Source of the DNA: a virus
Length of the DNA stretch: 26,730 bases
Reading direction: 5' to 3' (one strand)
IMG/VR virus record: IMGVR_UViG_3300034102_000874
Location: 1 to 26,730 of that record
Positions 2,992-26,730 of this stretch are shown here, piece by piece (within the stretch, counting starts at the first letter, position 1; each line of letters begins with the position of its first letter). The position numbers and the translations under genes were made by a program. The notes under the pieces were generated by a model that was not told the DNA's origin, ran no database searches, and saw only the letters and a program-made list of their open reading frames with translations.

Positions 2992-4471
2992 TAGCCTGCT
3001 AGATGAACTGGCTAACAGAAAGTTGGCTAGGGAACACCTGATCAATTTCTCTACATACACAATGCCAGAGTATGAAATTAACTGGCATCATCAATTGATC
3101 AGCGATCAGATAGACAGGATGTTGTTACCTTCAGATCATCCTAATGCTTTGAGAAAACTTGCATTAGCAATTCCTCCACGAATGGGTAAATCAGAACTTA
3201 TTTCCAGAAGACTTCCTGCATTTCTCTTTGGTAAGAATCCAAACACTCAGATCATTGCTTGTTCCTATGGTGCTGACCTATCCAGTCGTATCAACAGGGA
3301 TGTGCAAAGGGTATTAGTCAGCGCAGAATACAAGAGACTTTTTCCTGAAACTACGATTAGTGAGACTTCAGGGGGTAGAGGTGCAGTATCCGAAAACTAT
3401 ACAAGAACTTCTGACCTGTTTGAAATTGTAGGACACAAAGGATTCTATCGTTCAGCGGGTGTAGGTGGTGCGATTACGGGTATGGGTGGTCACTGGTTGA
3501 TCGTAGACGACCCCTTCCGTAACCGTGAAGATGCAGACTCCCCTACCATTCGCAATACAGTCAAGCAATGGTACAAGTCCACCTTCCGTACCAGAGCAGA
3601 AAAAGATGTCCGTATCATTGTCGTACAAACCCGTTGGCATCCAGACGATCTGATTGGTGACATTCTCACCAAGATGAAAGAAGAATCGGATGCTGACCAA
3701 TTTGAATACATTAGCTTTCCTGCTATTGCGGAAGGAATGTTAAACCCTCAGGATCCAAGAAAACACGGAGAACCTATTTGGCCAAACAAATACAGTTTGG
3801 CAGATATGCTTACTACCAAAAGTTCTGTAGGCTCCAGAGAATGGGAATCTCTTTATCAATGTAACCCTTCATCTGAAGGGGCTCAGGAATGGGCACCAGA
3901 CTTGTTTGCTGACCACATATGGCTAGAAGGAGACTGGCCTAAGAAAGATGAACTGGAAGCCTGTGTGTTAGCAATTGACCCTTCCAAAGGTGCAGACAGC
4001 AAACATGGGGATTACTCAGCGATAACTGTTTTGGCTAGAACCAAAAGTAAAAAACTTCTAGGTCATGTGTATATGGCTCGTATGTCTACAGAGACTATGA
4101 TTGACCAAGTTATTGACATGGTTCGTCAGTACAGACCAGATCTTGTAACCTGTGAAAGCAATATGTTTCAGTCCCTGATTCTGGAAAACCTTACAAGAAA
4201 AGCTCAGAAGGCTGGACTTAGAGTACCTGCACAGGGTGTACAGAACACGCTAAAGAAAGAAGTTCGCATTCGTAGATTAGGTCCATATCTTGAACAGAAG
4301 ATGTTTCAATTTACAAAATCTTCTGGATCCAAATTGCTGGTAGACCAACTCAAAATGTTTCCTTCCAGCCAACATGATGATGGTCCTGACAGTTTGGAAC
4401 TAGCATTGCGTTCACTCATCTTCGTATGCAATAATAAGTTAAAGCCATCTATACAAGGAATCCGGAGTTAA
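2975..4471 (+). CDS. terL: Phage terminase large subunit (ATPase/nuclease)
   Basis: Motor and nuclease that cuts concatemeric DNA and pumps it into the prohead. In the 498-residue product the ATPase domain shows a Walker A variant PPRMGKSE (67-74), Walker B LIVDDP (175-180) and the downstream motif TRWHPDDL (219-226). The C-terminal RNase H-like nuclease domain shows its acidic residues in VLAIDPSKG (D335), VTCESN (E394) and HDDGPDSLE (D468, D472). Length and motif order match Terminase_6-type proteins. The frame is open back to a TTG at 2948 and an ATG at 2963, but ATG 2975 (MTTDHDSLLDE) gives the most natural N-terminus; none has a strong ribosome site, which fits coupling to the overlapping small subunit gene. 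Confidence 0.95.
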   Translation: MTTDHDSLLDELANRKLAREHLINFSTYTMPEYEINWHHQLISDQIDRMLLPSDHPNALRKLALAIPPRMGKSELISRRLPAFLFGKNPNTQIIACSYGADLSSRINRDVQRVLVSAEYKRLFPETTISETSGGRGAVSENYTRTSDLFEIVGHKGFYRSAGVGGAITGMGGHWLIVDDPFRNREDADSPTIRNTVKQWYKSTFRTRAEKDVRIIVVQTRWHPDDLIGDILTKMKEESDADQFEYISFPAIAEGMLNPQDPRKHGEPIWPNKYSLADMLTTKSSVGSREWESLYQCNPSSEGAQEWAPDLFADHIWLEGDWPKKDELEACVLAIDPSKGADSKHGDYSAITVLARTKSKKLLGHVYMARMSTETMIDQVIDMVRQYRPDLVTCESNMFQSLILENLTRKAQKAGLRVPAQGVQNTLKKEVRIRRLGPYLEQKMFQFTKSSGSKLLVDQLKMFPSSQHDDGPDSLELALRSLIFVCNNKLKPSIQGIRS

Positions 4472-11146: not shown

Positions 11147-11554
11147 ATGGCAGTAGTATCAGGAAAGTATGGCTACGCTACAATTGATTTTGGAGCCAGT
11201 GTATTGCAGTTTGATGTAACTGACTGGACTGCTACTCCTGCAATGGATGCCGTAGATGTCACCAATACTAACGCTATGACAGTATTAGGTACATGGGAAG
11301 ATACGGTAGCAAGTATTTATAAATCTGATTTTACTTTTAGTGGACCTGTAACAGAAGAATTATTTAATCTTGGATTTTCTCCCACTTTTTCAGGTATATA
11401 CGCCAGAGTAGAATTAGGTTATATAATTCAAGGTGTACCTAGAGTTGTACATAATGATCAAGTGTTAATCACAAGTATGAAACAGACTGTAAATGTCAAA
11501 GGTTTTTGGCAATATGAAGCCAGCGGTACTTCTTCTTGTTACACTAATCTGTAA
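11147..11554 (+). CDS. Tail tube protein candidate (paralog 1)
   Basis: A 135-residue beta-rich protein. The order YGYATIDFG, then LQFDVTDWTATPAMDAVDVT, then a C-terminal QTVNVKGFWQYEASGTS fits a tail tube monomer, in which a beta sandwich with a long loop stacks into hexameric rings. The next gene repeats the same layout (ITYTYGASTIELPMTEWTVT, ATDAIDGTN-like region, LNVRGVLEYTITASN), so the two are paralogs. Its strong capsid-like ribosome site suggests the more abundant product, hence this copy is the best tail tube candidate. No other protein of the window fits that role better. Confidence 0.65.
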   Translation: MAVVSGKYGYATIDFGASVLQFDVTDWTATPAMDAVDVTNTNAMTVLGTWEDTVASIYKSDFTFSGPVTEELFNLGFSPTFSGIYARVELGYIIQGVPRVVHNDQVLITSMKQTVNVKGFWQYEASGTSSCYTNL

Positions 11555-11566
11555 GGAGCTTCAATA

Positions 11567-12298
11567 ATGGCCTACTCGCAATCGTTTTCGGGAAGACAGG
11601 GTGCAATTACTTATACTTATGGTGCATCCACAATTGAACTTCCTATGACAGAGTGGACTGTCACGCACTCTACAGATGCAATTGATGGTACTAACTTCAC
11701 TTCTAGGTATCCTACTCTGTTTGGACCTTTTAATGAATTTGGAGACGGTGCTTATTTTGAAGAAGGAGAAGGTTCTGTTGCATCTCAAGAAGTTGCACCG
11801 GGATATAATAAACTAAATATTGAAGCCAGAGGGTATCCTTCTTGTGAAGAAGATGTACCGGGAGGAGAATCTGTAATTCCTCTTCCTTTGATTGGGGAAC
11901 GAGTAGTATTTACTGTGTATCCTATGGTAGGTAACCCTGATCTAGGTACAGTTTCTTGGGCGTACTATGCTCGTATCAATAGCGTTAATTATAGTCTAAA
12001 TGTTCGTGGAGTGTTGGAATACACTATCACAGCTTCTAACGCTGGTCCTCCTCCGCTTCCTGCTGCTGCTGCTAATGTAAGTGCTGCGGATGGGGAAGAG
12101 AACTTAACCTACGCTCAAAGAGTTAAAAAGCGAAGAGATGCTGTGGTAAAGCCTTGGAGTCCTCCTCAGTCCAAGCTGAAACCAATTGCACCTCCTCCTG
12201 ATTTTAAGCCTATTAAACCTGTACCCGTACCTCCTGATCCAGTTCCCCCTGCTCCAGTACCTCCTACACCACCTGAACCTGAACCAGAGGCTCCCTAA
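11567..12298 (+). CDS. Tail-tube-like protein with proline-rich tail (paralog 2)
   Basis: A 243-residue protein. Residues 1-160 align by eye with the 135-residue product of the preceding gene: TYGASTIELPMTEWTVTHST with FGASVLQFDVTDWTATPAMD, and SLNVRGVLEYTITASN near the end. After about residue 185 comes a basic linker (QRVKKRRDAVVKPW) and a tail composed almost entirely of Pro with Val, Pro, Glu and Lys. It may be a minor tube protein or an adaptor whose tail protrudes from the virion. AAGGAG lies upstream of the ATG; the stop overlaps the next start as TAATG. Confidence 0.6.
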   Translation: MAYSQSFSGRQGAITYTYGASTIELPMTEWTVTHSTDAIDGTNFTSRYPTLFGPFNEFGDGAYFEEGEGSVASQEVAPGYNKLNIEARGYPSCEEDVPGGESVIPLPLIGERVVFTVYPMVGNPDLGTVSWAYYARINSVNYSLNVRGVLEYTITASNAGPPPLPAAAANVSAADGEENLTYAQRVKKRRDAVVKPWSPPQSKLKPIAPPPDFKPIKPVPVPPDPVPPAPVPPTPPEPEPEAP

Positions 12299-13410: not shown

Positions 13411-13863
13411 ATGGCATCTCCAAATGTGGGACCCAATCTTGGGAATGCAGGTAGTCCTATTGAAGCTGAGATTGGTGGACAGAAGGTAAAACTTCGTTAT
13501 ATTGATCAGCGTGTTAAAGCAGCGTTGGAACAAGCTCTTGCTACAAAAGCAAGAAACCTGCTTAAAGAAGACAAAGCGGAAATGTCTGATGAAGAGTACG
13601 CTGTTGCATACGGAGCGTATTCTGATCGCATTGTGGCAGGTCACTATGCGTTTAGTAATCGTATGTGTCAGAACTGGCTTCCGACTGTTGAAGGGTTATC
13701 TCATATCCTTCACATCTGTGGGAATATCCCACTTCAGAAAGCCGAAAGTATGATCATGGAATACCCCCTAGAAGTGGGTACTCTGATTAGGTTGGTTATG
13801 GAGAGCAGCTTCCCAAACCTGAACAGGGTGGAGACGGAGACCACCCAAAAGGAATCCGAGTAG
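13411..13863 (+). CDS. Tail assembly chaperone, short form (gpG-like)
   Basis: A 150-residue, mostly helical protein between the tube-like genes and the tape measure gene, the invariable place of tail assembly chaperones. These bind the tape measure protein during tail assembly and are not retained in the virion. The N-terminal part (IEAEIGGQKVKLRYIDQRVK) is followed by helical segments to a charged C-terminus. It ends at TAG 13861-13863. A slippery heptamer at 13812-13818, 45 bases before the stop, should divert a fraction of ribosomes into the -1 frame (see the following entries). Confidence 0.8.
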   Translation: MASPNVGPNLGNAGSPIEAEIGGQKVKLRYIDQRVKAALEQALATKARNLLKEDKAEMSDEEYAVAYGAYSDRIVAGHYAFSNRMCQNWLPTVEGLSHILHICGNIPLQKAESMIMEYPLEVGTLIRLVMESSFPNLNRVETETTQKESE

Positions 13864-14168
13864 CTGCTGATCCAGCGGAAATGCCTAATCCCGCTGCTGT
13901 ATATGCGGTCCTGACGGATGAGCCACTTAATCTACGATTCCATGAAATTGCGGAACTTACTGATTATCAAATCTATAGTATCTATTTAAGGGAACGAGAC
14001 AGTAAGGGTAACCCAAAACCTATACCTGCACCTGCTCCTATTTATAGAACTGTAAGAAATAAGATCAGAGAAAGAAACCAATTCATTGCTTCGTGTATTC
14101 AATCAGGGCAAACTCCTCAACAGGCTCTTAAACAGTGGGAAATAATTAACCATGTCAAGCGGAACTAA
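13411..14168 (+). CDS. Tail assembly chaperone, frameshifted long form (gpGT-like)
   Basis: Translation begins at 13411 and slips by -1 at C CCA AAC (13812-13818). The first 136 codons in the original frame are joined to codons from 13818 to the stop at 14168, giving about 252 residues. The -1 frame is open from 13791. Between the slip and the internal ATG at 13881 it reads PEQGGDGDHPKGIRVAADPA, which looks like genuine protein, and the rest is helical (LNLRFHEIAELTDYQIYSIY). The internal ATG at 13881 lacks a convincing ribosome site, so independent expression is unlikely. The layout copies lambda G/GT. The last 17 bases overlap the tape measure gene. Confidence 0.75.
13812..13846 (+). promoter_or_regulatory. 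Programmed -1 ribosomal frameshift signal
   Basis: C CCA AAC (13812-13818) fits X XXY YYZ exactly in the zero frame of the 13411 gene (codons ttC CCA AAC). After a 7-base spacer (13819-13825) comes a 6-bp GC-rich stem, GGGTGG (13826-13831) with CCACCC (13841-13846), loop of nine. Loop bases CGGA (13835-13838) could also pair with TCCG (13855-13858), allowing a small pseudoknot. All three classical elements are present with standard spacing. Confidence 0.8.
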
Positions 14169-16392
14169 TGTTGAAGTTAATGCCACTAGCATGACACCAA
14201 GCGCACCTGTAGGAGGAGCCGACGCTCTTGCTCCTCTTACAGCTGCATTGGATAAACTTCATACAGCTTTATCCTCTGTAGAAACAACTATTAAAGCTTT
14301 AGACATTGGTAAAGCGTTTACGGTAACGCTGAGTAATGAACTAAGTGCATTTGTCAGTCGTTTTGATACTGTCCTCACCCAGTTTACAACCAAGTTTACT
14401 ACGAACTTGGATAAGCTATTGTCTAACATTAGTGTTACTGCTAAGGGAGGAAGAGGCGGAAAAAAAGAAAGCCGAAAGGATAAAGAGTTTAGAATAGAAC
14501 TTGAATCTAATTTAAAACTTTCTGAAAAAAATATTCGAGATGCACAAAAACAGATATCTGTAGAGATAGAAGCAAACTTAAAAGAAGCTGCTAAAGAAAT
14601 AAAAACAAGAAGAAAAAATTTCAAATTAAAGTATCTTGATTATGGTGTAAAAACAGACAAAGTAGCTGAATCATTTTTAGATCAATTTCAATTGGGATTA
14701 AAAAATGCAAAAGAAAAACAAGAAAAAGAAAAAATAGTCAGAGAAAAACAAGCAAAAGAAGCAAGGGACCGTAGACTATCTAGTCTTGTTATTCAACAAA
14801 CAGACTATGGTGTAAAAGCCGATAAAGTAGCAGGATCGTTTTTAGATAATTTTAAAAAATCTATGGAAGCCTCTAAAAAGGCTATGGCAATACCGTCTCC
14901 CTATAATAGGGATTATTTAAAAAATTTAAATAGACCTAAAGATGATAAGAATTATGTAACTGTAACACCTACAGGAGAATGGTCAGGGGCTTCTGTAAAA
15001 GATCCTAAAAAGGTTATGGCAGTACCTTCGCCTTACAGTAGGGATTACCTTCGCAATGCTGATAAAGAACGAAATAATCCTATAACTCCATCGTTTGGAA
15101 TACAGCCTCCTTTTACTCCTAAAGTTACTAATGGAACTGGTGGGTTTGACTGGAAAAAACTAGGCACTGCTGCTGGGTTAGGATTTGCATTTACTGGTGG
15201 AGCAGGTATTGCAGCAGCAGCAATAGTAAAATTGATGCCTAAGCTCCTTAAAGCATTTGAACCTGTAGTGGAGTTGGGTAATGCGCTGGTTGATTCTCTG
15301 GATCCTTTTGCTGAAGCAGTAAACACTGCTCTTACTCCCCTTAGGGACTTAGCTAATCAGTTAAAACGCTTCTCTATGCTTGGAGGATATGGTGCATCCT
15401 TCAACATGAACCGTATCAATGCTGAGTTTGAAGCCAATCTTAACAACCTTATGGGGGATATGCTGAAAACAATCAGCAGTGTCTTCTCCAATCCTATGGT
15501 AGGCATTATGGATGCTGCCAATATGATTGGAAAGTTTGTTGATATGGTTGACCCAGCGGCTATGTCTGCGTTTCAACAGACTATGAGGGATACATTTGCC
15601 GTAATAGGTACTGCACTTAGACCAGTTATGGTTGAACTGACTAGAATGCTTCGGTCTTTTGCGGATCATTTGCACCCTATTCTACAGGGAGCAATGCCTA
15701 GGATCCTTAGCGGACTTCAGGCAATGGCAGAAGCCTTTGAAAGGAACATTCCTCTTATCACTTTGATGTTGGAAAAGTTTTTAGGAGACACTCTTAAAGC
15801 AGTAGATAAAAGTGGTAACTTGTTTGGAGATGAACTTAAGCCTGAAAATTTAGTAAAAAGTTTAACAGACTACAATAAAGAAAATAAATTTTTAAATGCT
15901 GATTTTAATTTTTTAGATTCCGCACAGCGTGTAGCTAAACAAGCTATAACAGGAGGTACTGTAGGTGCTTATACAAAATCTGAAAGAGATGCACTAAAAG
16001 CACAAAGACTTTTTGAAAAATTACTTACAGTAGCAGGTAAAGAAGGAGGTATTGAAAAGAATAAAGAATTTCTTAGTTCCTTTATTAAAAGTATTGTAGA
16101 TAAAACAAAACCACCTAGCACAGTAGGGTTAGCTAGAGTTACGGATTCTGCTTATGGTGGAGTCGCTGAAGTAGGTAGGGAAGCTGTTCGTAGAGCATTT
16201 GAAGGTAGTAGGCTTCAAGATCTTACCCGAAAAAATAATAGGGAAGATATCGAGACAGGGACTTATAATGCTTTTATAAAAGCACTGGAACAATTTAAGA
16301 CAGGTGAAAAAATCTATGAGAAAAGTCCTCCACATTCAGGAGCCTTCCCCCTAAATCCTAGTAGGGGAAGTGACTTAGCTTTTCCAAGATAA
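14152..16392 (+). CDS. Tail tape measure protein
   Basis: A 746-residue protein after the chaperone pair, the longest rightward gene, as expected for the protein that sets tail length. Residues 100-245 are highly charged and helical or coiled. Two duplicated motifs are visible: DYGVKTDKVAESFLDQFQ (163-180) with DYGVKADKVAGSFLDNFK (218-235), and MAIPSPYNRDYLKN (245-258) with MAVPSPYSRDYLRN (289-302). A Gly/Ala-rich hydrophobic stretch (about 338-362) could insert in the host membrane. It overlaps the chaperone by 17 bases. Base composition is patchy: the charged part and the segment coding about 560-720 are AT-rich, the middle less so, suggesting mosaic origin. At this length the tail would be moderately short (inference). 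Confidence 0.85.
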   Translation: MSSGTNVEVNATSMTPSAPVGGADALAPLTAALDKLHTALSSVETTIKALDIGKAFTVTLSNELSAFVSRFDTVLTQFTTKFTTNLDKLLSNISVTAKGGRGGKKESRKDKEFRIELESNLKLSEKNIRDAQKQISVEIEANLKEAAKEIKTRRKNFKLKYLDYGVKTDKVAESFLDQFQLGLKNAKEKQEKEKIVREKQAKEARDRRLSSLVIQQTDYGVKADKVAGSFLDNFKKSMEASKKAMAIPSPYNRDYLKNLNRPKDDKNYVTVTPTGEWSGASVKDPKKVMAVPSPYSRDYLRNADKERNNPITPSFGIQPPFTPKVTNGTGGFDWKKLGTAAGLGFAFTGGAGIAAAAIVKLMPKLLKAFEPVVELGNALVDSLDPFAEAVNTALTPLRDLANQLKRFSMLGGYGASFNMNRINAEFEANLNNLMGDMLKTISSVFSNPMVGIMDAANMIGKFVDMVDPAAMSAFQQTMRDTFAVIGTALRPVMVELTRMLRSFADHLHPILQGAMPRILSGLQAMAEAFERNIPLITLMLEKFLGDTLKAVDKSGNLFGDELKPENLVKSLTDYNKENKFLNADFNFLDSAQRVAKQAITGGTVGAYTKSERDALKAQRLFEKLLTVAGKEGGIEKNKEFLSSFIKSIVDKTKPPSTVGLARVTDSAYGGVAEVGREAVRRAFEGSRLQDLTRKNNREDIETGTYNAFIKALEQFKTGEKIYEKSPPHSGAFPLNPSRGSDLAFPR
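16344..16370. repeat. Inverted repeat near the convergent gene ends
   Basis: CTTCCCC (16344-16350) and GGGGAAG (16364-16370) form a 7-bp stem with a 13-base loop within the last codons of the tape measure gene. No long T tract follows in either direction, so it is at best a weak terminator for the converging transcripts. Confidence 0.3.
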
Positions 16393-16393
16393 C

Positions 16394-17629
16394 TTACAAA
16401 TCAGGAGCAGTCTCGAATACCCATTGGGGATTACAGAACAGTAACTCCATTGGGAAAGACGGATAAAGCATTGGCTGTATATCCTCTGGAAGTTCATCTC
16501 CTTTTGTTGCTCCCCTAATGATACCAGCGTACCAAGTGTTTCCTTGCAAGTAAGGAAGCAGGTTATGTCCTGCATAAATTTCATTACCACCTTCCGATGG
16601 ATCAGGATAAATCTCATCTGTCTTGGGATTCCTATGTATAAACACAAAATCAATGTCACACAGTAACTCAGCGGTATACCCTTTATATGTAATTGGAGGT
16701 ATTCCTCCCGGAATATCCTTTAACTCAGGAAAAGGTTTAGGATATATTTTTGTTACATTGACAGCTTCAAGTAGCAATGAACCAGCAGGATACCCTGTAT
16801 CCCATTCACCACCAAATATAGGGAGCTGATTGACACTTCCTATAGCTAAATCAAACACAGTTTTATTTTCAGGACTGTTGATTCCTGTGACATAGCTATA
16901 AGGTACTTGAAACCATTTTGCTACTACTACTTTAGAAGGAATTAGTATTTTAACTTGCCCTGCATTAGTCATTTGGTAAACATCAAGAGGAGGATCTTTT
17001 TCTGCCATAGACGGAATGTAGTAAGCATATTGTCCAAGATTACCTGACAAGTATTCTGCTCTTGGAGCAGAGGTCACATAACAAAATCGTTCCCATTCTG
17101 GCCATATGTCTGTAAATTCAATTGCAGTATTATTTGGCTTGGGAGGATAATAAGTGAGACTTATTTTATTATATTCCATGTATTCGTCAGGAAGAATTTT
17201 GTAAGGTCTAGGCTCAAACCCTACGCTAATTTTGTACTCACTGTAGTCTGCAAACACAGGATAGGCAGGTGCTAACAATCGTGCATTAGGATCTTCTGTT
17301 ACTTCATAAATGTAGTCAACCGTCTTCTTATACTTATGACCTTTGTAGGATTCAATCGCTGTAGCAAAGAACCATGGGAACTGGGGATGAGCCAGCGGAA
17401 GTTTACGCTGTAATCCTGCTTTAGCCAATATTGCTGCTGGTGGTAATGCAGGTGGTAATTCAGAACAGTTCCCAATCAGTTGCTCTAATACTTTCCAAGC
17501 CTGCTCTGAACCCACCATGAATTCCATGGAGGCTTTACCCCCATCCATACTGAATCCAGTATTGGATGGAGATGTACTGCCAATCGTTTCAGGGAAACGA
17601 ATCCATTCTTCTCTGGTAAAGTCAGGCAT
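16394..17629 (-). CDS. Unknown protein, possibly virion-associated
   Basis: A 411-residue protein rich in Pro, Tyr, Glu, Ile and Trp, without signal peptide or membrane segment. It looks globular with many strands; PPKPNNTAIEFTDIWPEW and PIFGGEWDTGYPAG are typical stretches. I do not recognise a family. It is the last gene of the leftward block and ends one base from the end of the tape measure gene on the other strand. Tail tip (distal tail and tail-associated) proteins, which normally follow the tape measure gene, are otherwise missing, so this could be one of them in reversed orientation; nothing in the sequence proves it. The ribosome site (AGAAAG) is weak. Confidence 0.75.
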   Translation of the reverse strand: MPDFTREEWIRFPETIGSTSPSNTGFSMDGGKASMEFMVGSEQAWKVLEQLIGNCSELPPALPPAAILAKAGLQRKLPLAHPQFPWFFATAIESYKGHKYKKTVDYIYEVTEDPNARLLAPAYPVFADYSEYKISVGFEPRPYKILPDEYMEYNKISLTYYPPKPNNTAIEFTDIWPEWERFCYVTSAPRAEYLSGNLGQYAYYIPSMAEKDPPLDVYQMTNAGQVKILIPSKVVVAKWFQVPYSYVTGINSPENKTVFDLAIGSVNQLPIFGGEWDTGYPAGSLLLEAVNVTKIYPKPFPELKDIPGGIPPITYKGYTAELLCDIDFVFIHRNPKTDEIYPDPSEGGNEIYAGHNLLPYLQGNTWYAGIIRGATKGDELPEDIQPMLYPSFPMELLFCNPQWVFETAPDL

Positions 17630-17679
17630 ATTATTTCTTTCTATGATCTCGTTTAATAGGTCTACGCTTTGCTTTCCTA

Positions 17680-17712
17680 CCGTAAGCTCCTACGAGCTTC
17701 AGAGTCTTACGG
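17680..17712. repeat. Inverted repeat after the membrane protein gene
   Basis: CCGTAAG (17680-17686) and CTTACGG (17706-17712) can pair; an alternative inner stem GCTC/GAGC lies at 17686-17697. It overlaps the stop codon of the leftward gene at 17707 and lies in the 77-base gap before the next leftward gene. There is no T run, so an mRNA-stability or processing role is more likely than termination (inference). Confidence 0.4.
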
Positions 17713-18039
17713 GTTGAGGGCTGGCGCATCTATAGGCTTTCTGACCCTACTGGGCCGGGAATCCATCTCATCCAGCTTATGAAGAATTGCGTCTTGTGAC
17801 TCAGTTAATCGTTCCTGAGTCTCAACAACCTTAGTCATAGTTTTATCAAGACTATTTAAAGAAGCACTGAGATCATCGACAAACTTCAAGTGCTTTGCGA
17901 CTACAGGTACACCTACATGGGTAGCAAACCATTTAATTGCTTCCCTACCAAACCAGATTAGGGCCACTATCAGTGCTATAAACAAACCAAAGTCTTTGGC
18001 AAGTGAAGTAAACACTGAAGGTGGCCCCATATCTGTCAT
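17707..18039 (-). CDS. Small membrane protein with coiled-coil tail (holin-like candidate)
   Basis: A 110-residue protein. Residues about 17-31 (FGLFIALIVALIWFG) form one transmembrane helix, followed by a short amphipathic part (REAIKWFATHVGVP). A heptad-like helix about 48-95 (LKFVDDLSASLNSLDKTMTK, then VVETQERLTESQDAIL) is probably a coiled coil, and the tail is basic and Pro-rich. GGAG lies eight bases before the ATG. The size, single helix and position two genes downstream of a cysteine peptidase fit a holin or another membrane component of a lysis or injection system, but no family motif confirms this. Confidence 0.7.
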   Translation of the reverse strand: MTDMGPPSVFTSLAKDFGLFIALIVALIWFGREAIKWFATHVGVPVVAKHLKFVDDLSASLNSLDKTMTKVVETQERLTESQDAILHKLDEMDSRPSRVRKPIDAPALNP

Positions 18040-18056
18040 GGCGTAGCTCCGTTAGC

Positions 18057-18380
18057 TTATCCAATATACTCGGAAAGCAGACGAATTGCTAGCTTAATTA
18101 CTACAGAAAGCGCAAGTGCAGGAAGAATACCTCCACCTGCTACACTGTTAGGCGTAACTTCTTCTTTGGAGTACTGGATCAGGTTCTCCAGAGCAACTTC
18201 CTCAGAAAGGTCTCCAGCTTCCCCTATAACGCTAGGTAATGGCAAAGCCAACCCTAGGCCATACCCAGAGATGTTCCAAGCTCCTTGGACCACTTCTGCC
18301 ATGCTAACAGGGTTACCACGAACCTTGTCCAACATAACCATCAAAGCATCAACAGGCATTGTCTTAGGATACTCAATCAT
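18057..18380 (-). CDS. Hypothetical protein with C-terminal hydrophobic segment
   Basis: A 107-residue protein beginning MIEYPKTMPVDALMVMLDK. The first part looks helical, the middle is Gly- and Pro-containing (GLGLALPLPSVIGEAGD), and residues about 81-103 (AGGGILPALALSVVIKLAIRLL) could form a transmembrane or amphipathic helix. No family recognised. A GGAG-type site (AAGGAGACGACC) precedes the ATG. It lies between the papain-like peptidase and the coiled-coil membrane protein, all transcribed leftward, and may belong to the same functional unit. Confidence 0.65.
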   Translation of the reverse strand: MIEYPKTMPVDALMVMLDKVRGNPVSMAEVVQGAWNISGYGLGLALPLPSVIGEAGDLSEEVALENLIQYSKEEVTPNSVAGGGILPALALSVVIKLAIRLLSEYIG

Positions 18381-18390
18381 GGTCGTCTCC

Positions 18391-19305
18391 TTAAATTACC
18401 CAGTCTAAACGAAGAGGGAAACCTTCCACAGTGGAAAATGCCCAGCTATCGCCATATTGTAGCATCTTGTGAATGATCTTGGACTGAGCCCAGAATCCTT
18501 CAGGACCGGGTTCACCCCAACCTACAGGACCGCTGCAGTAATTAGGACCCCAGCTGTTGTCGATTCTACCATACTCTGTGCCATCATCCAGCGTAATGTA
18601 GCCAGCAAGACACATACAATGAGCCCAGCTACCCTGAGGAGCAGCTACACCATTCTGGTTACGGACCTTACTGAATCCCTGATTGGAACAAACAGAGATA
18701 CCATAGCCTTGGGCAAGAGCTTTCTTTGCTTCTTCCCAAGTGCTAATCTTGGTAATCGTTTTTACAGGATGGGTTTTCGCAACATTCTCCAACTCTGTAG
18801 GCACACCATTGTCGCCGAAGCTACGGCAAGTACTCTCAGAATATACAGAGAGGTCATACTTTCCGTACTTACCTCTTGCAACAACTCCATACTGTCGAAC
18901 GAACTCTGCTGCCCAAGCTCCCACAGAACCGTCACCACGAATACGCTTTCGACCAATCTCAACCCGAGACCCACCATAAGTTACTTCCTCTGCAATAGCT
19001 GCATACTTTTCAGGACTACCTGAAGCAATCTCGCATAGCAACGAATACAGAATAGCCCTGTTCGTTCCATGAGCAACGCAGCTACCAATAGAACCCTGAT
19101 TCCTCCAAGGCAGCAATGTACCCAGCACCTTTTTAGCAGCGTTCCACAGGAAGGCTTGTTTTGGTAGGGTGGATATTTCATTCGCTGGAGTATTCCCAAA
19201 GCTAGGAAAAGGTTGGAGAGCAGCTACAGATTGGACAGCTTCCGGATCGTTATGCCATCCGCACAGTTCTGCCATATCAAATTCAACATCGTGAATAGCA
19301 CTCAT
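18391..19305 (-). CDS. Papain-family (C1) cysteine peptidase
   Basis: A 304-residue protein with the full papain active-site set in order: NQGSIGSCVAHG gives the oxyanion Gln70 and nucleophile Cys76 (compare QG.CGSCWA), GSWAHCMCLAGY gives His229, and RIDNSWGPNY gives Asn250 in the family hallmark NSWG. No signal peptide is seen; the first 60 residues could be a short propeptide or a virion-anchoring part. The ATG overlaps the stop of the upstream gene (ATGA). In phages, clan CA folds usually appear as CHAP or NlpC/P60 lysins; a true C1A-like peptidase is less common. Possible roles are cell-wall peptide cleavage in lysis or entry, or processing of virion proteins. The family assignment is firm, the role is not. 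Confidence 0.88.
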   Translation of the reverse strand: MSAIHDVEFDMAELCGWHNDPEAVQSVAALQPFPSFGNTPANEISTLPKQAFLWNAAKKVLGTLLPWRNQGSIGSCVAHGTNRAILYSLLCEIASGSPEKYAAIAEEVTYGGSRVEIGRKRIRGDGSVGAWAAEFVRQYGVVARGKYGKYDLSVYSESTCRSFGDNGVPTELENVAKTHPVKTITKISTWEEAKKALAQGYGISVCSNQGFSKVRNQNGVAAPQGSWAHCMCLAGYITLDDGTEYGRIDNSWGPNYCSGPVGWGEPGPEGFWAQSKIIHKMLQYGDSWAFSTVEGFPLRLDWVI

Positions 19306-19832
19306 TTTACACCTTTCAAATTAACAAGTACAGATTGAATTGCAGCTTTAAGTTGTGACTGTAATTCAGGAGTCATAGGAACATCATCAGATACAATCTT
19401 GACAAAATCTTTGCTGATCTCTTTCCTCAAGTCAATCAGGGTATTACCTAATGGCTTACCCATAGTCTTGAGATTGTCATGGAATGCACCTGTAGTCTTA
19501 GCTTCAGGGAGATCTTTCAATGCAATTTCCCAGATCTGACTCAGACTGGTTAGTGCCAGTTTCTTCTGAACCAACGGAGTCTTATCCGCATCGTAGAATT
19601 TCTGAAAAGGAGATACTACTTCTGGAACCACATTAGGTGGTACAACAGGTACAACCTCTGCGTTTTCATCAGCGGGAAGACTAAGGTCAATGGTAGGACC
19701 ATTGAGTTTGATGGATCCATCAGCGAGTAGAACAATGGTTACTCCATTATGGATAACCACAGTCTGAGCCTTCTCTACCTTAATGGAAGGTGGAGCAGAC
19801 AATACCAAAAACAAAAGGGAACTAAGCATCAT
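19302..19832 (-). CDS. Exported or membrane-anchored hypothetical protein
   Basis: A 176-residue protein with an N-terminal hydrophobic stretch (MMLSSLLFLVLSAPPSIKV). It resembles a short signal peptide, with possible cleavage after the SA at 12-13; there is no lipobox Cys. The next part is beta-like (TVVIHNGVTIVLLADGSIKL), then a Val/Pro-rich linker (about 53-72) and a helical C-terminal half. Two adjacent ATG codons are possible starts (19832, 19829). It overlaps the peptidase gene by four bases (ATGA), so the two are translated together. Export plus coupling to a peptidase suggest a periplasmic or envelope role such as a spanin-like or inhibitor/chaperone partner; this is inference. Confidence 0.65.
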   Translation of the reverse strand: MMLSSLLFLVLSAPPSIKVEKAQTVVIHNGVTIVLLADGSIKLNGPTIDLSLPADENAEVVPVVPPNVVPEVVSPFQKFYDADKTPLVQKKLALTSLSQIWEIALKDLPEAKTTGAFHDNLKTMGKPLGNTLIDLRKEISKDFVKIVSDDVPMTPELQSQLKAAIQSVLVNLKGVK

Positions 19833-19837
19833 GACTC

Positions 19838-20128
19838 CTAGAATTGAGAGATCTTGACAAAAAACTGAGACTCCTCAGCTGCATATACTGTACCACTGCC
19901 TGTCCACTTGTAGTAGTGTATACCACCCTGTGTCAGTAGGTGGTCTACATGGTATTTACCAACAGCGTCTTTGATGACAGCAGCATCTACTAAATAGGTA
20001 TATGTGATTACAGTACTATCTGGAAGTCTAAGTTCCAGAACAACTGTTGATGGATCCACAGTTGTACCTGCAAGATCCTTAAAAGTGACGGAGCATCGTA
20101 CTACATCACCTGTGTCATATTGAGCCAT
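19838..20128 (-). CDS. Small Ig-like virion protein
   Basis: A 96-residue protein with the strand pattern DVVRCSVTFKDLAG, STVVLELRLPDSTVITYTY, AVGKYHVDHLLTQGGIHYYK, then AAEESQFFVKI. This matches a common small phage protein type with a single Ig-like or fibronectin-like sandwich, often encoded near tail or fibre genes. The frame is open to a TTG at 20134, but GGAG seven bases before ATG 20128 decides for the latter, which also overlaps the previous stop (TAATG). Role as a structural adaptor is inferred from the pattern. Confidence 0.7.
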   Translation of the reverse strand: MAQYDTGDVVRCSVTFKDLAGTTVDPSTVVLELRLPDSTVITYTYLVDAAVIKDAVGKYHVDHLLTQGGIHYYKWTGSGTVYAAEESQFFVKISQF

Positions 20129-20316
20129 TAGCAAACTCCGCTGGTTGATTCACAGGGGCATACAGAACTGGATGCAGTGCATAAATAAACTAACGATACT
20201 CCAACTTTACAGGAGTATAGTAACTGTAAGTCTACATGGATACACGCTGCAACAAGTAGCTGAGAGCCACCCATTGCAGCGTATGGTGTACTAGCGTAAG
20301 GAACGCTACCGTACAT
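20128..20316 (-). CDS. Small Cys-rich hypothetical protein
   Basis: A 62-residue protein starting MYGSVPYASTPYAAMGG and containing six Cys, three of them in the last twelve residues (VCPCESTSGVC). A mildly hydrophobic middle (SQLLVAACIHVDLQLLYSCK) could be a strand pair or membrane helix. GGGAG lies about 11 bases before the ATG. Tight packing, with three bases after the upstream gene and a TAATG overlap downstream, argues that it is translated. No function can be assigned. Confidence 0.55.
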   Translation of the reverse strand: MYGSVPYASTPYAAMGGSQLLVAACIHVDLQLLYSCKVGVSLVYLCTASSSVCPCESTSGVC

Positions 20317-20319
20317 TTC

Positions 20320-20667
20320 TTACAGCACTCCCTGCTTAAGCGCAATCTTTGCAAGCACAGCCAAGAACTGTGGCATGATTGCAATGACATCAGGGTTTTC
20401 GTTCAACCAATCTGCTCCTAATTGCTCCGACAAAGAAGCAAGATTAGTGATATTGCGAACCACATTGTTTGTGGCAATGTTGGACAATGCTGTTGCATTG
20501 CCTTTGACCCAGAAGGATTCCAGATCGTACACATCACCATCACGACGAGCAATGTTAGTTCCGGTCAGAAACCATTGGTCGTAGGTAGCACCCTCAACAG
20601 GAGGAACTACCGTAGGATCTGTCGCTGGAATCTCAGGAAACACAGGTTCTGGAATCGTATCAGCCAT
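20320..20667 (-). CDS. Hypothetical protein
   Basis: A 115-residue protein. The first 26 residues are Pro- and Glu-rich (IPEPVFPEIPATDPTVVPP), the middle is mixed (YDQWFLTGTNIARRDGDVYD) and the C-terminal half is helical and Ala/Asn/Leu-rich. No family recognised. AAAGGAGATTCCA gives a good ribosome site. Its location just downstream of the LamG-like gene and upstream of small virion-like genes suggests a virion or chaperone role, but there is no direct evidence. Confidence 0.65.
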   Translation of the reverse strand: MADTIPEPVFPEIPATDPTVVPPVEGATYDQWFLTGTNIARRDGDVYDLESFWVKGNATALSNIATNNVVRNITNLASLSEQLGADWLNENPDVIAIMPQFLAVLAKIALKQGVL

Positions 20668-20681
20668 TGGAATCTCCTTTG

Positions 20682-21455
20682 TTAAATACCGTATCGTCCA
20701 CGAAGCAATTCAAAATTGGTGGCTACTTCCGCAGCAGTAAGCACTTTATTTTTCCAAACTCTAGATGAATAAATAGAACCATTCAAATGGTATTGGGTAT
20801 CAGATATTCCTATGCTTCCAAAATAATTTCCAAGAAATAGTGAAGTTCCTCCAGTATCGCTTCCTTGATCACCAGTATTAAAATTAAAACTTCTAGTAGC
20901 AATAATGCTTCCATTTACATATGTATTATGATTATTTGTAGTTGCTGTTTTATCAATAGTAGAACAAATATGCCATATTTTATTTGTAAGTTGTGAAGGA
21001 GTATGCGTCCAATCTGTATAATTTCCAGATGTATTTCTTCCAATAGAAAATATAAAATTTGTATTATAATCTACGATTATTAAATACCAACAATATGTTG
21101 GAGTTCCATTAGATGTTCTGCTTTCAAATATATACTGTCTACTTTGTGCGCTTCCAGTCGTTTTAAACACAACATCAAAAGAAATTTGATTTATGTTTTG
21201 CCATTTAAATTCACCGCAATTTGTAATTTCAATATAATCTCCAGTACCATCTAATATAAATTGGCCATTATTATTTGAATTAAATGTTGTATTATAATAC
21301 AAAATACCATTTCTTCCATTACCACTTATGTCTGTCCAAGTAGTTCCTGTACCGGGATAACTGATTCTGCTCCCAGCATCCAGACACATATCAGGAGCCC
21401 TATTGAGAGCTACTGCATTAGGTCGCCGTTTGTATGCCCTATTGAGACCAGCCAT
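20682..21455 (-). CDS. LamG / concanavalin-like protein, putative receptor binding
   Basis: A 257-residue protein with the layout of LamG-type (Laminin_G_3) jelly-roll domains. After an N-terminal 25-residue lead (MAGLNRAYKRRPNAVALNRA) come LDAGSRISYPGTGTTWTDIS, DGTGDYIEI, ISFDVVFKTTG, WHICSTIDK, NTYVNGSII and a closing HLNGSIYSSRVWKNKVLTAA followed by EV. That closing is the typical LamG end. Such domains bind glycans, so a receptor-recognition role at the tail tip is likely. ATG 21455 overlaps the stop of the large fibre gene (TAATG) and has GGAGGG upstream; an earlier in-frame ATG at 21470 lies inside the fibre gene and is less likely. The body of the gene is strikingly AT-rich compared with both neighbours, suggesting recent acquisition. 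Confidence 0.8.
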   Translation of the reverse strand: MAGLNRAYKRRPNAVALNRAPDMCLDAGSRISYPGTGTTWTDISGNGRNGILYYNTTFNSNNNGQFILDGTGDYIEITNCGEFKWQNINQISFDVVFKTTGSAQSRQYIFESRTSNGTPTYCWYLIIVDYNTNFIFSIGRNTSGNYTDWTHTPSQLTNKIWHICSTIDKTATTNNHNTYVNGSIIATRSFNFNTGDQGSDTGGTSLFLGNYFGSIGISDTQYHLNGSIYSSRVWKNKVLTAAEVATNFELLRGRYGI

Positions 21456-24271
21456 TAGGATACCCTCCATCCGGCTGCGCCTGAACCATTGCTAGTGGCA
21501 TCATAAATCAATTCAGCGTAGTCATTAGGTGCCAGAATGATGTCGGCACCTGTTGAGCTAAACATCCTATTCGCTGCTGTGGATGATGCGCTGTTGTGGG
21601 CCAGCGTTAAGTTCGCTGTACCAACATTGTAAACTCTAACCATGCGTCCATCGACATGGGTTCCACCAGATGGAGGTGCAATGCCTGTAAGACTAGCTGC
21701 TGATGTGCAATTGATGCGCTGAAAAGCTGAAGCAGTAAGGGTAAGATCATTCGTATTGGCAGAGAAGGCTGTGGTTGATGAAGGGAAGGATAGGGAGCCG
21801 CCAGAAGAAGACCCAACGGTTGTGCTTGAATTTGTGGTAATTGCAAGCACACCTAAAGTAGCTCTTTCCATTCCCAAATCATATGTGGATAGCGTAGAAG
21901 AATTACTCCATCCTATACCTCTGCCAGAAGGTAATGCGATGCTTCTAGTGTTACCTTGCCAGCTTCCAGCATTCATTTCAACTTCTGTAGAGTTTGCAGA
22001 TATTCTACAGAAACCACCTCCTGAAACACCAAGTCCATATGCTACAGTGTTTGCCGGGAAATCAAATCTATTCCCTGTCGCAGTTATACCAAAACCACCA
22101 CCACTTACTTTGTAGAACCTTCCAAACTCTACCCCATCAACATTTTTAAGAATTATAGTTCCATTCCCACCACTACTTCCCTGCGCTCCCGGTTGAAGAA
22201 TAATGTTTCCACCAGCACCTACACCAGAGCCATTACCAGCCGTGATGGTTACATTACCACCAGCACCAGATGTGGCGTTTGCTCCAGCAATTACTAGAGA
22301 CCTGACCAATCCTGTTCCAGCCTGCGCTAAACCAATCGTGCAGATGTTACTTGCCCATGTAATCCCTAATCGTTCATAGTTACTCGCATCCGTGTAGGTG
22401 TTGTATACCCGGAAGGTCTGTGCGTTGGTGCCGTTGCGTTGGGCTAATGTATTTGTTGCTTCTGACAACAATGAGCATACTACTGTTGCACCATTAAAAC
22501 TAGACGACCAAACTATGCTATGATTGCTTCTAACCCATGTTTGATCTGTGTAATATCTAATGTTTTCTACGCTTCCGCTATATAATGCCAGTTGTCCATT
22601 ATTGTTGTTTTTAATTCCAACAGATTGTGATCCTCCAGTTAAATATGTTTCTGGTGTTGGCCCTATGTACAGCCGATTAAGATTTGCATTTAACCCAGTA
22701 CCAATGTTTCCACTTGAATCGACAAATGCTTTTATTCCCGCAGTACTATCCTGCCACTCCTGCAAATTACTTGTCTGCCCAGCAACCTGCTTAACCACAA
22801 CCTTTCCATCGCCACCTGTCGTAGCCTGTCTACCAGCCTGAAGAATTAACGAACCACCAGCACCACTCGTCACGCCAGATCCAGCAGTAAAGGTGAGGTT
22901 ATTACCTGCACCAGAAACTACAGGGACAGAGGATAGTGCATTGGTCAGCGAAGGATAGTTCTTTTCCCACAATTGATTGGCAGAATTGTAAACAATGGTT
23001 TGCCCATTGCTGGGTGACTGAGCGGAAACATCATGCAGTTCGTCTAGTTCGTAACCATTCTGAACCTTAACGAATATCTTACCATTGCTTGGATTTTTGT
23101 ATTCAACAATGCCCACATACACTAGATGAGAAGGAGCCAGTGGCTTTACATTTGTAAATGTTCCAGCTACTGAATCGCTGAGGTAAAGTTGATCTCCATC
23201 CTCATAGGCTTGTGTATTGATCCCTGTAATCAAACCAATGATCGTCACAAGTCCATTTGAATTATCAGCCAAATCCGCAGAGATCATCCCAAGAGTTTGA
23301 GCAGATGTATTGTCAGATGTAGCGAGAGCTTTGGCGACAGTAGGAAGCTGCCCAATTGCGTTATTGATGTAAACAACAGTCCCTTTAGTCAGCGTAGCCC
23401 CTGTATCGTTTCTGACCTGTACGACGACATTCTGAGTTGCACCAGCAACACCCCATGACAGATTACCAGCACCATCTGTGGTAAGAGTATTTCCTACCGT
23501 ACCATCAGCATTAGGCAGCGTCCAAATGCGGTTGCTGGCGATTGAGTCAGGTGCTTTGAATCCTACATAATTGGTGCCATTAGAGGCCAGTTCTACGAAT
23601 CGAATCTCGTTTGTACTGCCTGCACTGGTGGCATAAGGGTTTAATGAAAAGGATCCATTATAGTCAATGTAGCCTCTTACATTGTCGTTGCCATATTGCC
23701 ACTGTAGAAGATTTCCTCCCCTACCTTCGATGATTACCTTTCCCGCATTATAATCTGAAACTATGAATCCAGTTGGATAACCTCCAGATAAAACTAAGTC
23801 TCCTCCGTTAATAGCATCAATACCTTCAAGATTATTACTCGATCCAGCTTCTATATATAAGCTTGCTCCTTCTCTAGTAGGATTTTCTGGAAGTGGTGGC
23901 GTAATGACAACATAAGTATCATCTGATTTAGCAGATCCAAGTTCATATACAGAGGCATTGCGATCCAATACCGCTGAAGCGATAGGCCCCATGAAAACAT
24001 CTTTGACACCAGCAGTAAACACTACAGCAGCATTAGCATTAGTGGATGCTTGTACAGTGGTCCTAGTCAGCGTATTAACCGCTGAGTAAGTACCAATGCC
24101 TGTTTCCCATTCAGATCCATTGGAATTAACGATTACATAGGCACAAGTGTCGCCGATGGATAGCTGGGAAGCAAATGACCTATAACCAGAGGCAGCCCCT
24201 GCAAGGGTAGCAGGCCCTGTTCCAGTTACAGTAGTTGTTTCTTTTACTCTGTCAGCGACAATGTATGCCAT
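21455..24271 (-). CDS. Large tail fibre protein
   Basis: A 938-residue protein. The N-terminus (about 1-95: MAYIVADRVKETTTVTGTGP, then GIGTYSAVNTLTRTTV, then AGVKDVFMG) matches the common virion-attachment domain of phage fibres. Residues about 280-430 (GTVVYINNAIGQLPTVAKAL, then YVGIVEYKNPSNGKIFVKVQ, then ELDELHDVSAQSPSNGQTIV) form a widespread fibre module. Later parts contain glycine-rich repeats (SGAGGSLILQAGRQ, SGAGGNVTITAGNGSG, VGAGGNIILQPGAQGSSG) characteristic of elongated beta fibres. The C-terminus (MVRVYNVGTANLTLAHNS) is a compact beta domain seen at fibre ends. It is followed, with stop/start overlap, by the LamG-like gene, which may supply an exchangeable receptor-binding tip. 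Confidence 0.85.
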   Translation of the reverse strand: MAYIVADRVKETTTVTGTGPATLAGAASGYRSFASQLSIGDTCAYVIVNSNGSEWETGIGTYSAVNTLTRTTVQASTNANAAVVFTAGVKDVFMGPIASAVLDRNASVYELGSAKSDDTYVVITPPLPENPTREGASLYIEAGSSNNLEGIDAINGGDLVLSGGYPTGFIVSDYNAGKVIIEGRGGNLLQWQYGNDNVRGYIDYNGSFSLNPYATSAGSTNEIRFVELASNGTNYVGFKAPDSIASNRIWTLPNADGTVGNTLTTDGAGNLSWGVAGATQNVVVQVRNDTGATLTKGTVVYINNAIGQLPTVAKALATSDNTSAQTLGMISADLADNSNGLVTIIGLITGINTQAYEDGDQLYLSDSVAGTFTNVKPLAPSHLVYVGIVEYKNPSNGKIFVKVQNGYELDELHDVSAQSPSNGQTIVYNSANQLWEKNYPSLTNALSSVPVVSGAGNNLTFTAGSGVTSGAGGSLILQAGRQATTGGDGKVVVKQVAGQTSNLQEWQDSTAGIKAFVDSSGNIGTGLNANLNRLYIGPTPETYLTGGSQSVGIKNNNNGQLALYSGSVENIRYYTDQTWVRSNHSIVWSSSFNGATVVCSLLSEATNTLAQRNGTNAQTFRVYNTYTDASNYERLGITWASNICTIGLAQAGTGLVRSLVIAGANATSGAGGNVTITAGNGSGVGAGGNIILQPGAQGSSGGNGTIILKNVDGVEFGRFYKVSGGGFGITATGNRFDFPANTVAYGLGVSGGGFCRISANSTEVEMNAGSWQGNTRSIALPSGRGIGWSNSSTLSTYDLGMERATLGVLAITTNSSTTVGSSSGGSLSFPSSTTAFSANTNDLTLTASAFQRINCTSAASLTGIAPPSGGTHVDGRMVRVYNVGTANLTLAHNSASSTAANRMFSSTGADIILAPNDYAELIYDATSNGSGAAGWRVS

Positions 24272-24325
24272 TTCTGTTCCCTCTGCGTAGGTTCTATTAT
24301 ACTACTACTGATTTATATTACAACA

Positions 24326-24763
24326 CTACACTGCAATGTAGCCTGTAAGTTGCATTGTGTCTGAAGGTAAGCTTCCAAACCCAATTCCAGTGATAGAAAA
24401 ATTTAAATTGCAGGTTGTAAATGGAAGTGAAACTACGGCTGTTCCACTACCAGTAAGATAAGTCGTTCCATTTACTTGGACTGTAGGATAAAATGGAGAA
24501 GTTGCTCCTGTATATAGCGTTAGATATAGTTTAAGACCAGCGAATGCTGGATCAAAGTTGCCCTGATACTGTGCAGTGTTATTAGGAGGAGAACCTAAAG
24601 CGTCATTACCTATGTAGAATACACTAAAGCAAGGGGGTCCCGGAGGATCAGGTATATCTCCTTGTTGCGTAAAACTATAGTGCATTCTTGTCAGTGTACT
24701 GGGTGTATAAAATTGTCCACGACACACTGCACTATTATGAGGAACCCACAAACCTATGTTCAC
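24326..24763 (-). CDS. Small beta-rich virion-like protein
   Basis: A 145-residue protein beginning, from the GTG at 24763, NIGLWVPHNSAVCRGQFY after the initiator. The body is strand-rich with Pro, Thr and Gly (LKLYLTLYTGATSPFYPTVQ, TTYLTGSGTAVVSLPF), suggesting an extracellular beta-sandwich. The GTG overlaps the preceding stop as GTGA and has GGAG about 11 bases upstream. An ATG at 24790 in the same frame is an alternative but overlaps the upstream gene by 31 bases. It lies between two fibre-like genes, so a tail-tip or fibre-accessory role is likely by position. Confidence 0.6.
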   Translation of the reverse strand: MNIGLWVPHNSAVCRGQFYTPSTLTRMHYSFTQQGDIPDPPGPPCFSVFYIGNDALGSPPNNTAQYQGNFDPAFAGLKLYLTLYTGATSPFYPTVQVNGTTYLTGSGTAVVSLPFTTCNLNFSITGIGFGSLPSDTMQLTGYIAV

Positions 24764-25401
24764 GATGCAATATCTCCAACCATTACCCATGTATTAGGAC
24801 CAGTTTTAATAATACTACACCCAGCAAATGTTGCACGGATCTTAGGTCCAACAGCACTTGCTAAAGTTACACCAGATGCACCTACTACAGTAACTTGACC
24901 TGAGTTAGTTTGAATAAGATCTATACCAGTTCCAATAGGAAAATTTACAGAAGTATTCAAAGGAATAGTCACAGTAATAGGGGAGGTATTACTTAGTGAT
25001 ACCCTATTGTTGGCATCAGTCAGCGCAAGGGTATAGCTAGTTCCAGTTTGAGCGTTTAGTGTAGGAGCATAACTTCCACCAGAAGCATCAATGGTAATGT
25101 TAGAGCCTGAAGGTGTGACCGTGATGTTTGAGCCAGCGACAATGTTGAGTCCACCTGTAAGTGAATTCAAACTGGTAACACCACTATTGCTGACAGTAAC
25201 GGTTCCAGAAGAGCCAGACACACCTATGCCTGTACCTGCGCTGATAGTAACAGCACCAGTGTAACCATTAACGCTAGTCACTCCACCAGCAATAGACGCT
25301 ACAGTACACTTGTAAGTAGGTCCACCTGTAGGGGTAAACATTAACCAGTCTGTAGGTGCAGCTGTACCCGCAATAAGTTCATCTGGTCTTTTAGATGGCA
25401 T
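24760..25401 (-). CDS. Fibre-like protein with beta repeats
   Basis: A 213-residue protein. The N-terminus (MPSKRPDELIAGTAAPTDWL) is typical of phage fibre or appendage proteins. Residues about 40-110 hold repeated units of the form GVTSVNGYTGAVTISAGTGI and SGVTSLNSLTGGLNIVAGSN, the standard beta-stalk repeat of phage fibres. The C-terminal part (YTLALTDANNRVSLSN, NFPIGTGIDLIQTNSGQVTV, ATFAGCSIIKTGPNTWVMVG) closely follows the terminal domain of many phage structural proteins. It overlaps the preceding gene by 11 bases and the following one by 4. A short tail fibre or baseplate appendage is the best reading. Confidence 0.8.
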   Translation of the reverse strand: MPSKRPDELIAGTAAPTDWLMFTPTGGPTYKCTVASIAGGVTSVNGYTGAVTISAGTGIGVSGSSGTVTVSNSGVTSLNSLTGGLNIVAGSNITVTPSGSNITIDASGGSYAPTLNAQTGTSYTLALTDANNRVSLSNTSPITVTIPLNTSVNFPIGTGIDLIQTNSGQVTVVGASGVTLASAVGPKIRATFAGCSIIKTGPNTWVMVGDIAS

Positions 25402-26730
25402 CAGTCATCTCCTTATAATCCTCACAACTACTACACACAGGTTCACCATTACGGGATTTACCGAAGCGTCTACATTCAGTATACTTACCGCAATGGTAAA
25501 GATTAGATGACCCACAGCACCCTGTGTTTTTCTTTTCTGCACCTAAATAGATACAGCGTTTTTCAAATCGTTTTTGAATCTCAGCCATCTTGGCTTTTGT
25601 TTCATTAGACACAGTTCGTACAGTTTGTGGAAACGAAGGAACTTGTGTTGTTATTGGGGGTACTGCTAATACAGGAGAAACAGTAGTATCCCATAGAATG
25701 TAAGAAAATCTATCGTCACTATAACGCAATAAAGCTGACTCTGGAGGATCTCCTACAGGACCTAAATCTATTACATTACCATCTCCCGGAGGGGGAGGCC
25801 ATACAGGTGGCAAAGGATCCAGATCATGAATACAATCATTGATTACAGGATTAGGAAATCGAAGAGCGTACAGATTGATTTCAGGTTTACCTGCAATAGA
25901 AGGTACTGTGATTCTAGCATACCAGTGTGTATCAGTAACAACTTCATCATAAGTAGAATCATCTGTACCTGCAATAATCCATGGTCTACCGGGAATATCT
26001 CTTAATCGCACCGCTACACAAAAAGAACCCCTGTCAATCGTTTTGATAAGGACTTCATACCCACCTGCAAAATTCAATTGATAGTTCTGATAGGCATCAT
26101 CTACTTCTCCCGGACAACCTATCTCAAGTAAGTTTGTAGTAGGATCGCTGGGAGTAGGGTTAATAACTTCAGGTAATCTTCCTACACCACATCCACAGGG
26201 AGGTCCTGATTCTGTACCACAATTAGATGCGTTATAACCCAGCGCACCCCAACCGGGTCCCTGAAATCTAGGATCATAGTTTCCTATGTCAGTAGGTCTC
26301 ATAGAGACTGTAGCACACCCATGTGTGTATTTACCAAAGGGTAATCCACACCCTTCTCCATGTTCTCCTACTTGATCTTTACCACAAGCAAATAACCAAG
26401 GAGTTAAACTAACAGTCATAACAATAGATTTTACATCTGTAGAGCATTGTCCTTCCATGCTGAAAGGAATACGATCTGTTGTAAACAACCAACTAAGGTA
26501 TCTAGTGTTAATATCGACATCAGGAGCTAGTAGCCTATAAGCTACACCACTAGCAGCTTGACAAGTTACCCATTGGTTTTCTGCTAAAGGAGGATCAAAT
26601 TCACTTCCCGGAACTAATCGCTGCATAGACAATTCACAAGAAAGTGAATTAGCGTCTAATACTGTAATGCTAACTTGATTCCGTAAAGTTAAACCGTATC
26701 CGGGTATAGTACCATGACTGGTATCATCAC
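25391..26730 (-). CDS. Cys-rich virion-like protein, N-terminus cut by window edge
   Basis: About 445 residues are visible. The frame has no stop up to the right edge (upstream residues include TIPGYGLTLRNQVSITVLDA), so the real start lies outside the window; the in-frame TTG at 26632 is probably internal. Cys pairs and clusters occur throughout (CGKDQVGEHGEGCG, PPCGCGVG). The last 50 residues form a compact domain with Cys spaced as CIYLG, GCCG, YHCGKYTEC and VCSSCEDY, followed by a short tail. This resembles a zinc-ribbon-like domain I associate with proteins of Planctomycetes and some phages, where a CxHxG start, a second Cys pair and a final CxxC-DY recur. The remainder is Pro-rich and strand-like, as in tail tip or fibre base proteins. 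Function is unknown. Confidence 0.75.
   Translation of the reverse strand, partial: DDTSHGTIPGYGLTLRNQVSITVLDANSLSCELSMQRLVPGSEFDPPLAENQWVTCQAASGVAYRLLAPDVDINTRYLSWLFTTDRIPFSMEGQCSTDVKSIVMTVSLTPWLFACGKDQVGEHGEGCGLPFGKYTHGCATVSMRPTDIGNYDPRFQGPGWGALGYNASNCGTESGPPCGCGVGRLPEVINPTPSDPTTNLLEIGCPGEVDDAYQNYQLNFAGGYEVLIKTIDRGSFCVAVRLRDIPGRPWIIAGTDDSTYDEVVTDTHWYARITVPSIAGKPEINLYALRFPNPVINDCIHDLDPLPPVWPPPPGDGNVIDLGPVGDPPESALLRYSDDRFSYILWDTTVSPVLAVPPITTQVPSFPQTVRTVSNETKAKMAEIQKRFEKRCIYLGAEKKNTGCCGSSNLYHCGKYTECRRFGKSRNGEPVCSSCEDYKEMTDAI

Follow-up and report, generated by a model that had tools for sequence, protein, structure and literature searches.

In a tailed phage known from a contig of an uncultivated virus, two overlapping reading frames stand directly upstream of the predicted tape-measure gene, and the question that this locus raises is how the second of them, T, is translated. 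The window (the whole stretch of 26,730 nucleotides that was analysed) carries genes for a terminase, a portal protein, a possible head protease, a capsid protein and tail proteins on its + strand, and the two overlapping ORFs directly 5' of the tape-measure gene have the lambda-like order G, GT, tape measure. We consider it very probable (about 0.93) that the frames are joined by a programmed -1 ribosomal frameshift in a tail assembly chaperone pair, with the slip on C CCA AAC. The features concerned are the following.

13411..13863, + strand: gene G in the zero frame, the predicted short form of a tail assembly chaperone, 150 aa (from the ORF and homologs)
13800..13803, + strand: GGAG, a speculative Shine-Dalgarno-like upstream stimulator, read from the sequence
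13812..13818, + strand: slippery heptamer C CCA AAC (X_XXY_YYZ), at the same codons in five divergent lineages
13818..14168, + strand: T part in the -1 frame, 116 aa past the slip, stop TAA 14166-14168 (from homologs)
13819..13825, + strand: 7-nt spacer CTGAACA; the search finds the stem at spacing 7
13826..13846, + strand: stem 1 of 6 bp, GGGTGG 13826-13831 with CCACCC 13841-13846, 9-nt loop
13835-13838 with 13855-13858, + strand: putative pseudoknot stem 2, weak, 4 bp, loop CGGA with TCCG
13861..13863, + strand: zero-frame stop TAG, 42 nt 3' of the heptamer
14152..16392, + strand: predicted tape-measure protein, 746 aa (from position and homology; the ORF of relatives at this place matches PHROG tape-measure families)

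The two reading frames and their setting

Gene G has the ribosome site AGGTGA. The -1 frame is open over 13791-14165 and runs across the zero-frame TAG at 13861-13863, as an earlier note on this DNA had read it; a shift at the heptamer would give a fusion of 136 + 116 = 252 aa, in agreement with the 252 or so residues that the note had expected. The start of the tape-measure ORF (14152) overlaps the stop of T. Homologs of T are 25-39% identical and stand in the same -1 relation to G, a relation found in every relative in which both frames are readable.

Alternatively, G and T could be two separate genes, T being started at the ATG at 13881, with the heptamer a mere accident. In its favour, this ATG is in frame with T, and the stretch of T upstream of it is poorly conserved. 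The anti-Shine-Dalgarno pairing upstream of the ATG, however, amounts to only -5.3 kcal/mol, a value that random 20-mers also reach (their lower quartile is -5.4), whereas the start at 13411 pairs more strongly (-8.3 kcal/mol); the ribosome site is indeed as poor as had been claimed. Moreover, six relatives (L013, L023, L032, L047, L051 and L062) lack any of the start codons ATG, GTG and TTG in the part of T that precedes its conserved motif and still have T in the -1 frame, which excludes a separately started T gene in these loci. The conservation of the slip codons, described below, also argues against two genes, and we regard this explanation as very improbable.

Neither G nor T has a significant match in Pfam or PHROG, and a comparison with the sequences of solved structures yielded nothing significant for either, save that T has a single short match, to a designed protein. 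The predicted fold of G is mostly helical (pLDDT 84.7). In a Foldseek search of a viral structure library its significant matches are unnamed phage proteins, and several annotated tail assembly chaperones appear as weak matches (E 0.07-0.3); the fold has no significant match in the PDB. The model of T (pTM 0.38) was judged too weak for a fold search. The window copy of the tape-measure ORF has no significant family match; the ORF 3' of T matches tape-measure PHROGs in ten relatives (L013, L023, L036, L051, L054, L061, L062, L064, L065 and L066). The assignment to G/GT is therefore made by context (the tape-measure ORF and the -1 overlap), not by sequence family, and on that basis it is secure; the naming of the pair as tail assembly chaperone genes in the earlier note was well founded.

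The locus family was assembled by searching virus contigs with capsid, G and T. A tblastn search of 50,697 phage records with the G, capsid and portal sequences gave no match, and scans of bacterial and archaeal genomes with G and capsid gave no relative. The terminase matches many phages, with identity below 40% among the matches listed, and for this reason no host is called.

Three observations concern the surrounding genes. In the relative L003/L011, G is 99% identical, but the tape-measure ORF encodes 814 aa versus 746 aa in the window, with 69% identity across the matched part; the tape-measure protein is changing faster, and the tail may be of a different length. The N-terminal stretches of the adjacent ORFs 11147-11554 and 11567-12298 are alike (44% over 36 residues), which suggests that a tail gene was duplicated. 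Finally, past the tail genes a long convergent block on the - strand (16394-26632) is directed towards the structural genes; it contains a papain-family (C1) cysteine protease domain (18391-19305, - strand) and an ORF of 938 aa whose match to a depolymerase C-terminal domain is weak and below threshold.

The probable slip site in the window and its conservation

The zero-frame codons at the slip site are TTC (13810), CCA (13813) and AAC (13816). The heptamer is perfect and in phase with the ORF 13411-13863, as had been claimed, and the coordinates and spacing given for the 7-base spacer, the 6-bp stem and the pairing of the loop with TCCG are correct. In-frame X_XXY_YYZ sequences occur at 20 of the 4376 codons of the + strand genes (0.46%). 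A 6-bp GC-rich stem with a pseudoknot helix of at least 4 bp at such spacing is found at 0.7% of + strand positions, and the same geometry in 0.9% of dinucleotide shuffles. Taken as a plain hairpin, the window structure (45 nt) has a z of -0.9, and random sites do equally well in 19% of cases. The hairpin alone is unremarkable in stability, and the pseudoknot geometry is a chance event of about 1%; the case rests on the heptamer and its place, with the structure as supporting evidence. The GGAG at 13800-13803, 8 nt 5' of the heptamer, is kept only in L007 and L008.

Among the relatives, C CCA AAC is found at the same codons in five lineages: the window with L007, L008, L012, L013/L025/L032, and L023. 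The G proteins of the C CCA AAC relatives are 40-48% identical to that of the window, at a codon identity of only 15-37%. A single codon is kept at 6 of the 32 degenerate invariant residues of G, including all three slip codons (for TTC CCA AAC the hypergeometric p is about 0.004, a value that ignores degeneracy), and the slip-site proline is the only column with at least four-fold degeneracy that keeps one codon. BLAST homology of G ends at residue 135-137, i.e. at the slip codon. In the near-identical relative L007, AGC has become AGT, which gives a -1-frame stop that ends 3 nt 5' of the heptamer and leaves only the stretch from the heptamer to the zero-frame stop for the shift. An alignment of homologous chaperone pairs, as proposed in the earlier note, thus shows the heptamer to be kept in five lineages, but not the stem: stems differ, and other motifs are found elsewhere. 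The frameshift interpretation is supported.

A real frameshift might nevertheless use a single-tRNA slip on C_CCA, or another downstream site, instead of the tandem slip on C_CCA_AAC. Z_ZZN tetramers are able to slip in E. coli (PMC4066793), and one clade of relatives (L034-L046) appears to use T_TTC with no heptamer. Yet the second codon is AAC, never AAT, in all five lineages, C_CCA is only 1.8-3.6-fold over background in E. coli (PMC4066793), and L014 has retained the CCA yet carries G_GGA_AAG downstream of it. We therefore find such a slip unlikely. Still less credible is that the frames are joined or parted by slippage in transcription or by a sequencing indel: some relatives (L047, L051) have runs of nine A on which transcription could slip, but homopolymers at the window site do not exceed three bases, and the same frame relation recurs in many contigs from different samples.

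We infer the slippage, its efficiency, the action of the stimulators and the chaperone function from the features described, and a tandem slip on C CCA AAC would proceed as follows. Most ribosomes would translate G (150 aa) and end at TAG 13861. In a minority, with CCA in the P site and AAC in the A site, both tRNAs would slip back one base onto CCC/AAA, with the downstream stem or pseudoknot holding the ribosome at the slip site, and the slipped ribosomes would read the -1 frame to TAA 14166, giving the fusion of G and T (252 aa). If lambda is a guide, G would coat the tape-measure protein encoded next, the T domain would recruit the major tail protein, and the G:GT ratio would matter in assembly.

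Predicted slip sites and downstream structures in the wider family

Relatives that lack C CCA AAC, the clade L034-L046 aside, have another slip site near the same place.

C_CCA_AAA overlapping A_AAA_AAA: L015/L018/L019/L024 (= L049/L050/L057)
C_CCA_AAA: L062
A_AAA_AAA: L047 and relatives, L054, L055, L064
A_AAA_AAC: L065
G_GGA_AAG (lambda's own): L014/L061, L066

On the fusion-protein tree, which includes the very long branches L062 and L065, there are five motif changes, as few as six motif classes allow; the C_CCA_AAC group could have a single origin, with weak support (66/78). L059 was considered as an in-frame fusion and rejected: it has the usual two frames and an A-run site.

The clade L034-L046 has no X_XXY_YYZ site and keeps both frames in the -1 relation. 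In L034, T_TTC (3375-3378) and a spacer of exactly 7 nt precede two helices, CCCGGA/TCCGGG and CGGAGA/TCTCCG, which make up an H-type pseudoknot (6 + 6 bp); the whole signal spans 3375-3424, and L036-L046 have it at the corresponding place. Each of the 12 pairs is present in every distinct sequence, a single cell excepted; in L046 one pair has changed from C-G to A-U by compensation, and the changes are too few for significant covariation. The protein alignment and the spacing point to T_TTC as the probable slip position. The earlier note had counted homologs that keep both frames without the heptamer against its reading. Taken literally, L034-L046 are such homologs, but they carry T_TTC and a pseudoknot instead, and we consider them a case of a changed signal, with frameshifting not lost. 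The window and clade pseudoknots have alike loops (AGACGGAGA and AGGCGGAGA, respectively); base-by-base homology was considered and rejected, since the alignment places the arms differently, and we therefore call the two analogous.

Strong but differing stems are found 5-6 nt downstream in all C_CCA_AAC relatives except the window pair. Over all motifs, strong hairpins lie 5-7 nt past the slip codon in L008, L012, L013, L023, L032, L049 and L062, where 0-2.7% of random sites from the same locus are equally good. Those of L066 and L054 are marginal (6% of random sites equally good), and no strong hairpin was seen after the slip site in L061 (G_GGA_AAG), L051, L055, L064 and L065. Three pairs vary on both sides in L012/L013/L023/L032, a number reached by 12 of 500 shuffles and based on four distinct sequences. 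The tendency of C_CCA_AAC and T_TTC to carry structure, and of A-run and G_GGA_AAG sites often to be without it, is suggestive only, as it involves few independent lineages and has exceptions in L049 and L065 (A_AAA_AAC). Tentatively, and at somewhat less than even odds, we propose that in this one tail-chaperone family the -1 shift has stayed constant while its signal was rebuilt at least five times, including the exchange of the tandem heptamer for a single-tRNA slip on T_TTC with a pseudoknot in L034-L046, and that the motifs presumed to be poorer at slipping (C_CCA_AAC, T_TTC) tend to carry the strong structures, as if the fusion ratio were held.

Relation to known frameshift systems

Phages widely conserve a -1 frameshift between G and T; in lambda, the tape measure and the major tail protein are bound by G and GT, and tail assembly depends critically on the ratio of these two (PMC5009743). 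The locus shares with lambda the order G, GT, tape measure, a -1 shift close to where G ends, and a short form with a fusion, and lambda's G_GGA_AAG is used by the relatives L014/L061 and L066. It differs in the slip site, C_CCA_AAC versus G_GGA_AAG, as the earlier note had rightly remarked, and in the downstream stems of most close relatives. Non-lambda slip sites are common at the G/T pair (PMC5009743, PMC10885494), AAC-ending ones among them (PMC5009743), and the difference is therefore not in itself novel; a survey of sequenced actinobacteriophages found every base at each heptamer position in joined genes (PMC10885494). Indeed, the haloarchaeal viruses HCTV-1 (G_GGA_AAC) and HCTV-2 (A_AAA_AAC) have AAC as the second codon in the same gene pair (PMC5009743), with GGA or AAA as the first codon in contrast to CCA here.

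In E. coli, C_CCA_AAG is the strongest heptamer, and AAY as second codon slips less well than AAR (PMC4066793). C_CCA_AAC is of the weaker AAY class, in a ranking that comes from E. coli and may not be that of the phage host. The T_TTC, spacer and H-type pseudoknot of L034-L046 resemble the Z_ZZN tetramers combined with an IS3 pseudoknot in E. coli, where U_UUC, with a pseudoknot downstream, ranks second among the tetramers for shifting (PMC4066793); there the gene is a transposase, in L034-L046 a tail gene pair.

The kind of frameshift is ordinary; its conservation in the relatives despite several changes of the slip sequence is confirmed at the level of sequence comparison. A gene pair missed by Pfam and PHROG can now be annotated as tail assembly chaperones, with a predicted product of 252 aa, and the wider family may serve as a natural series on the trade-off between slip motif and stimulatory structure at one fusion ratio.
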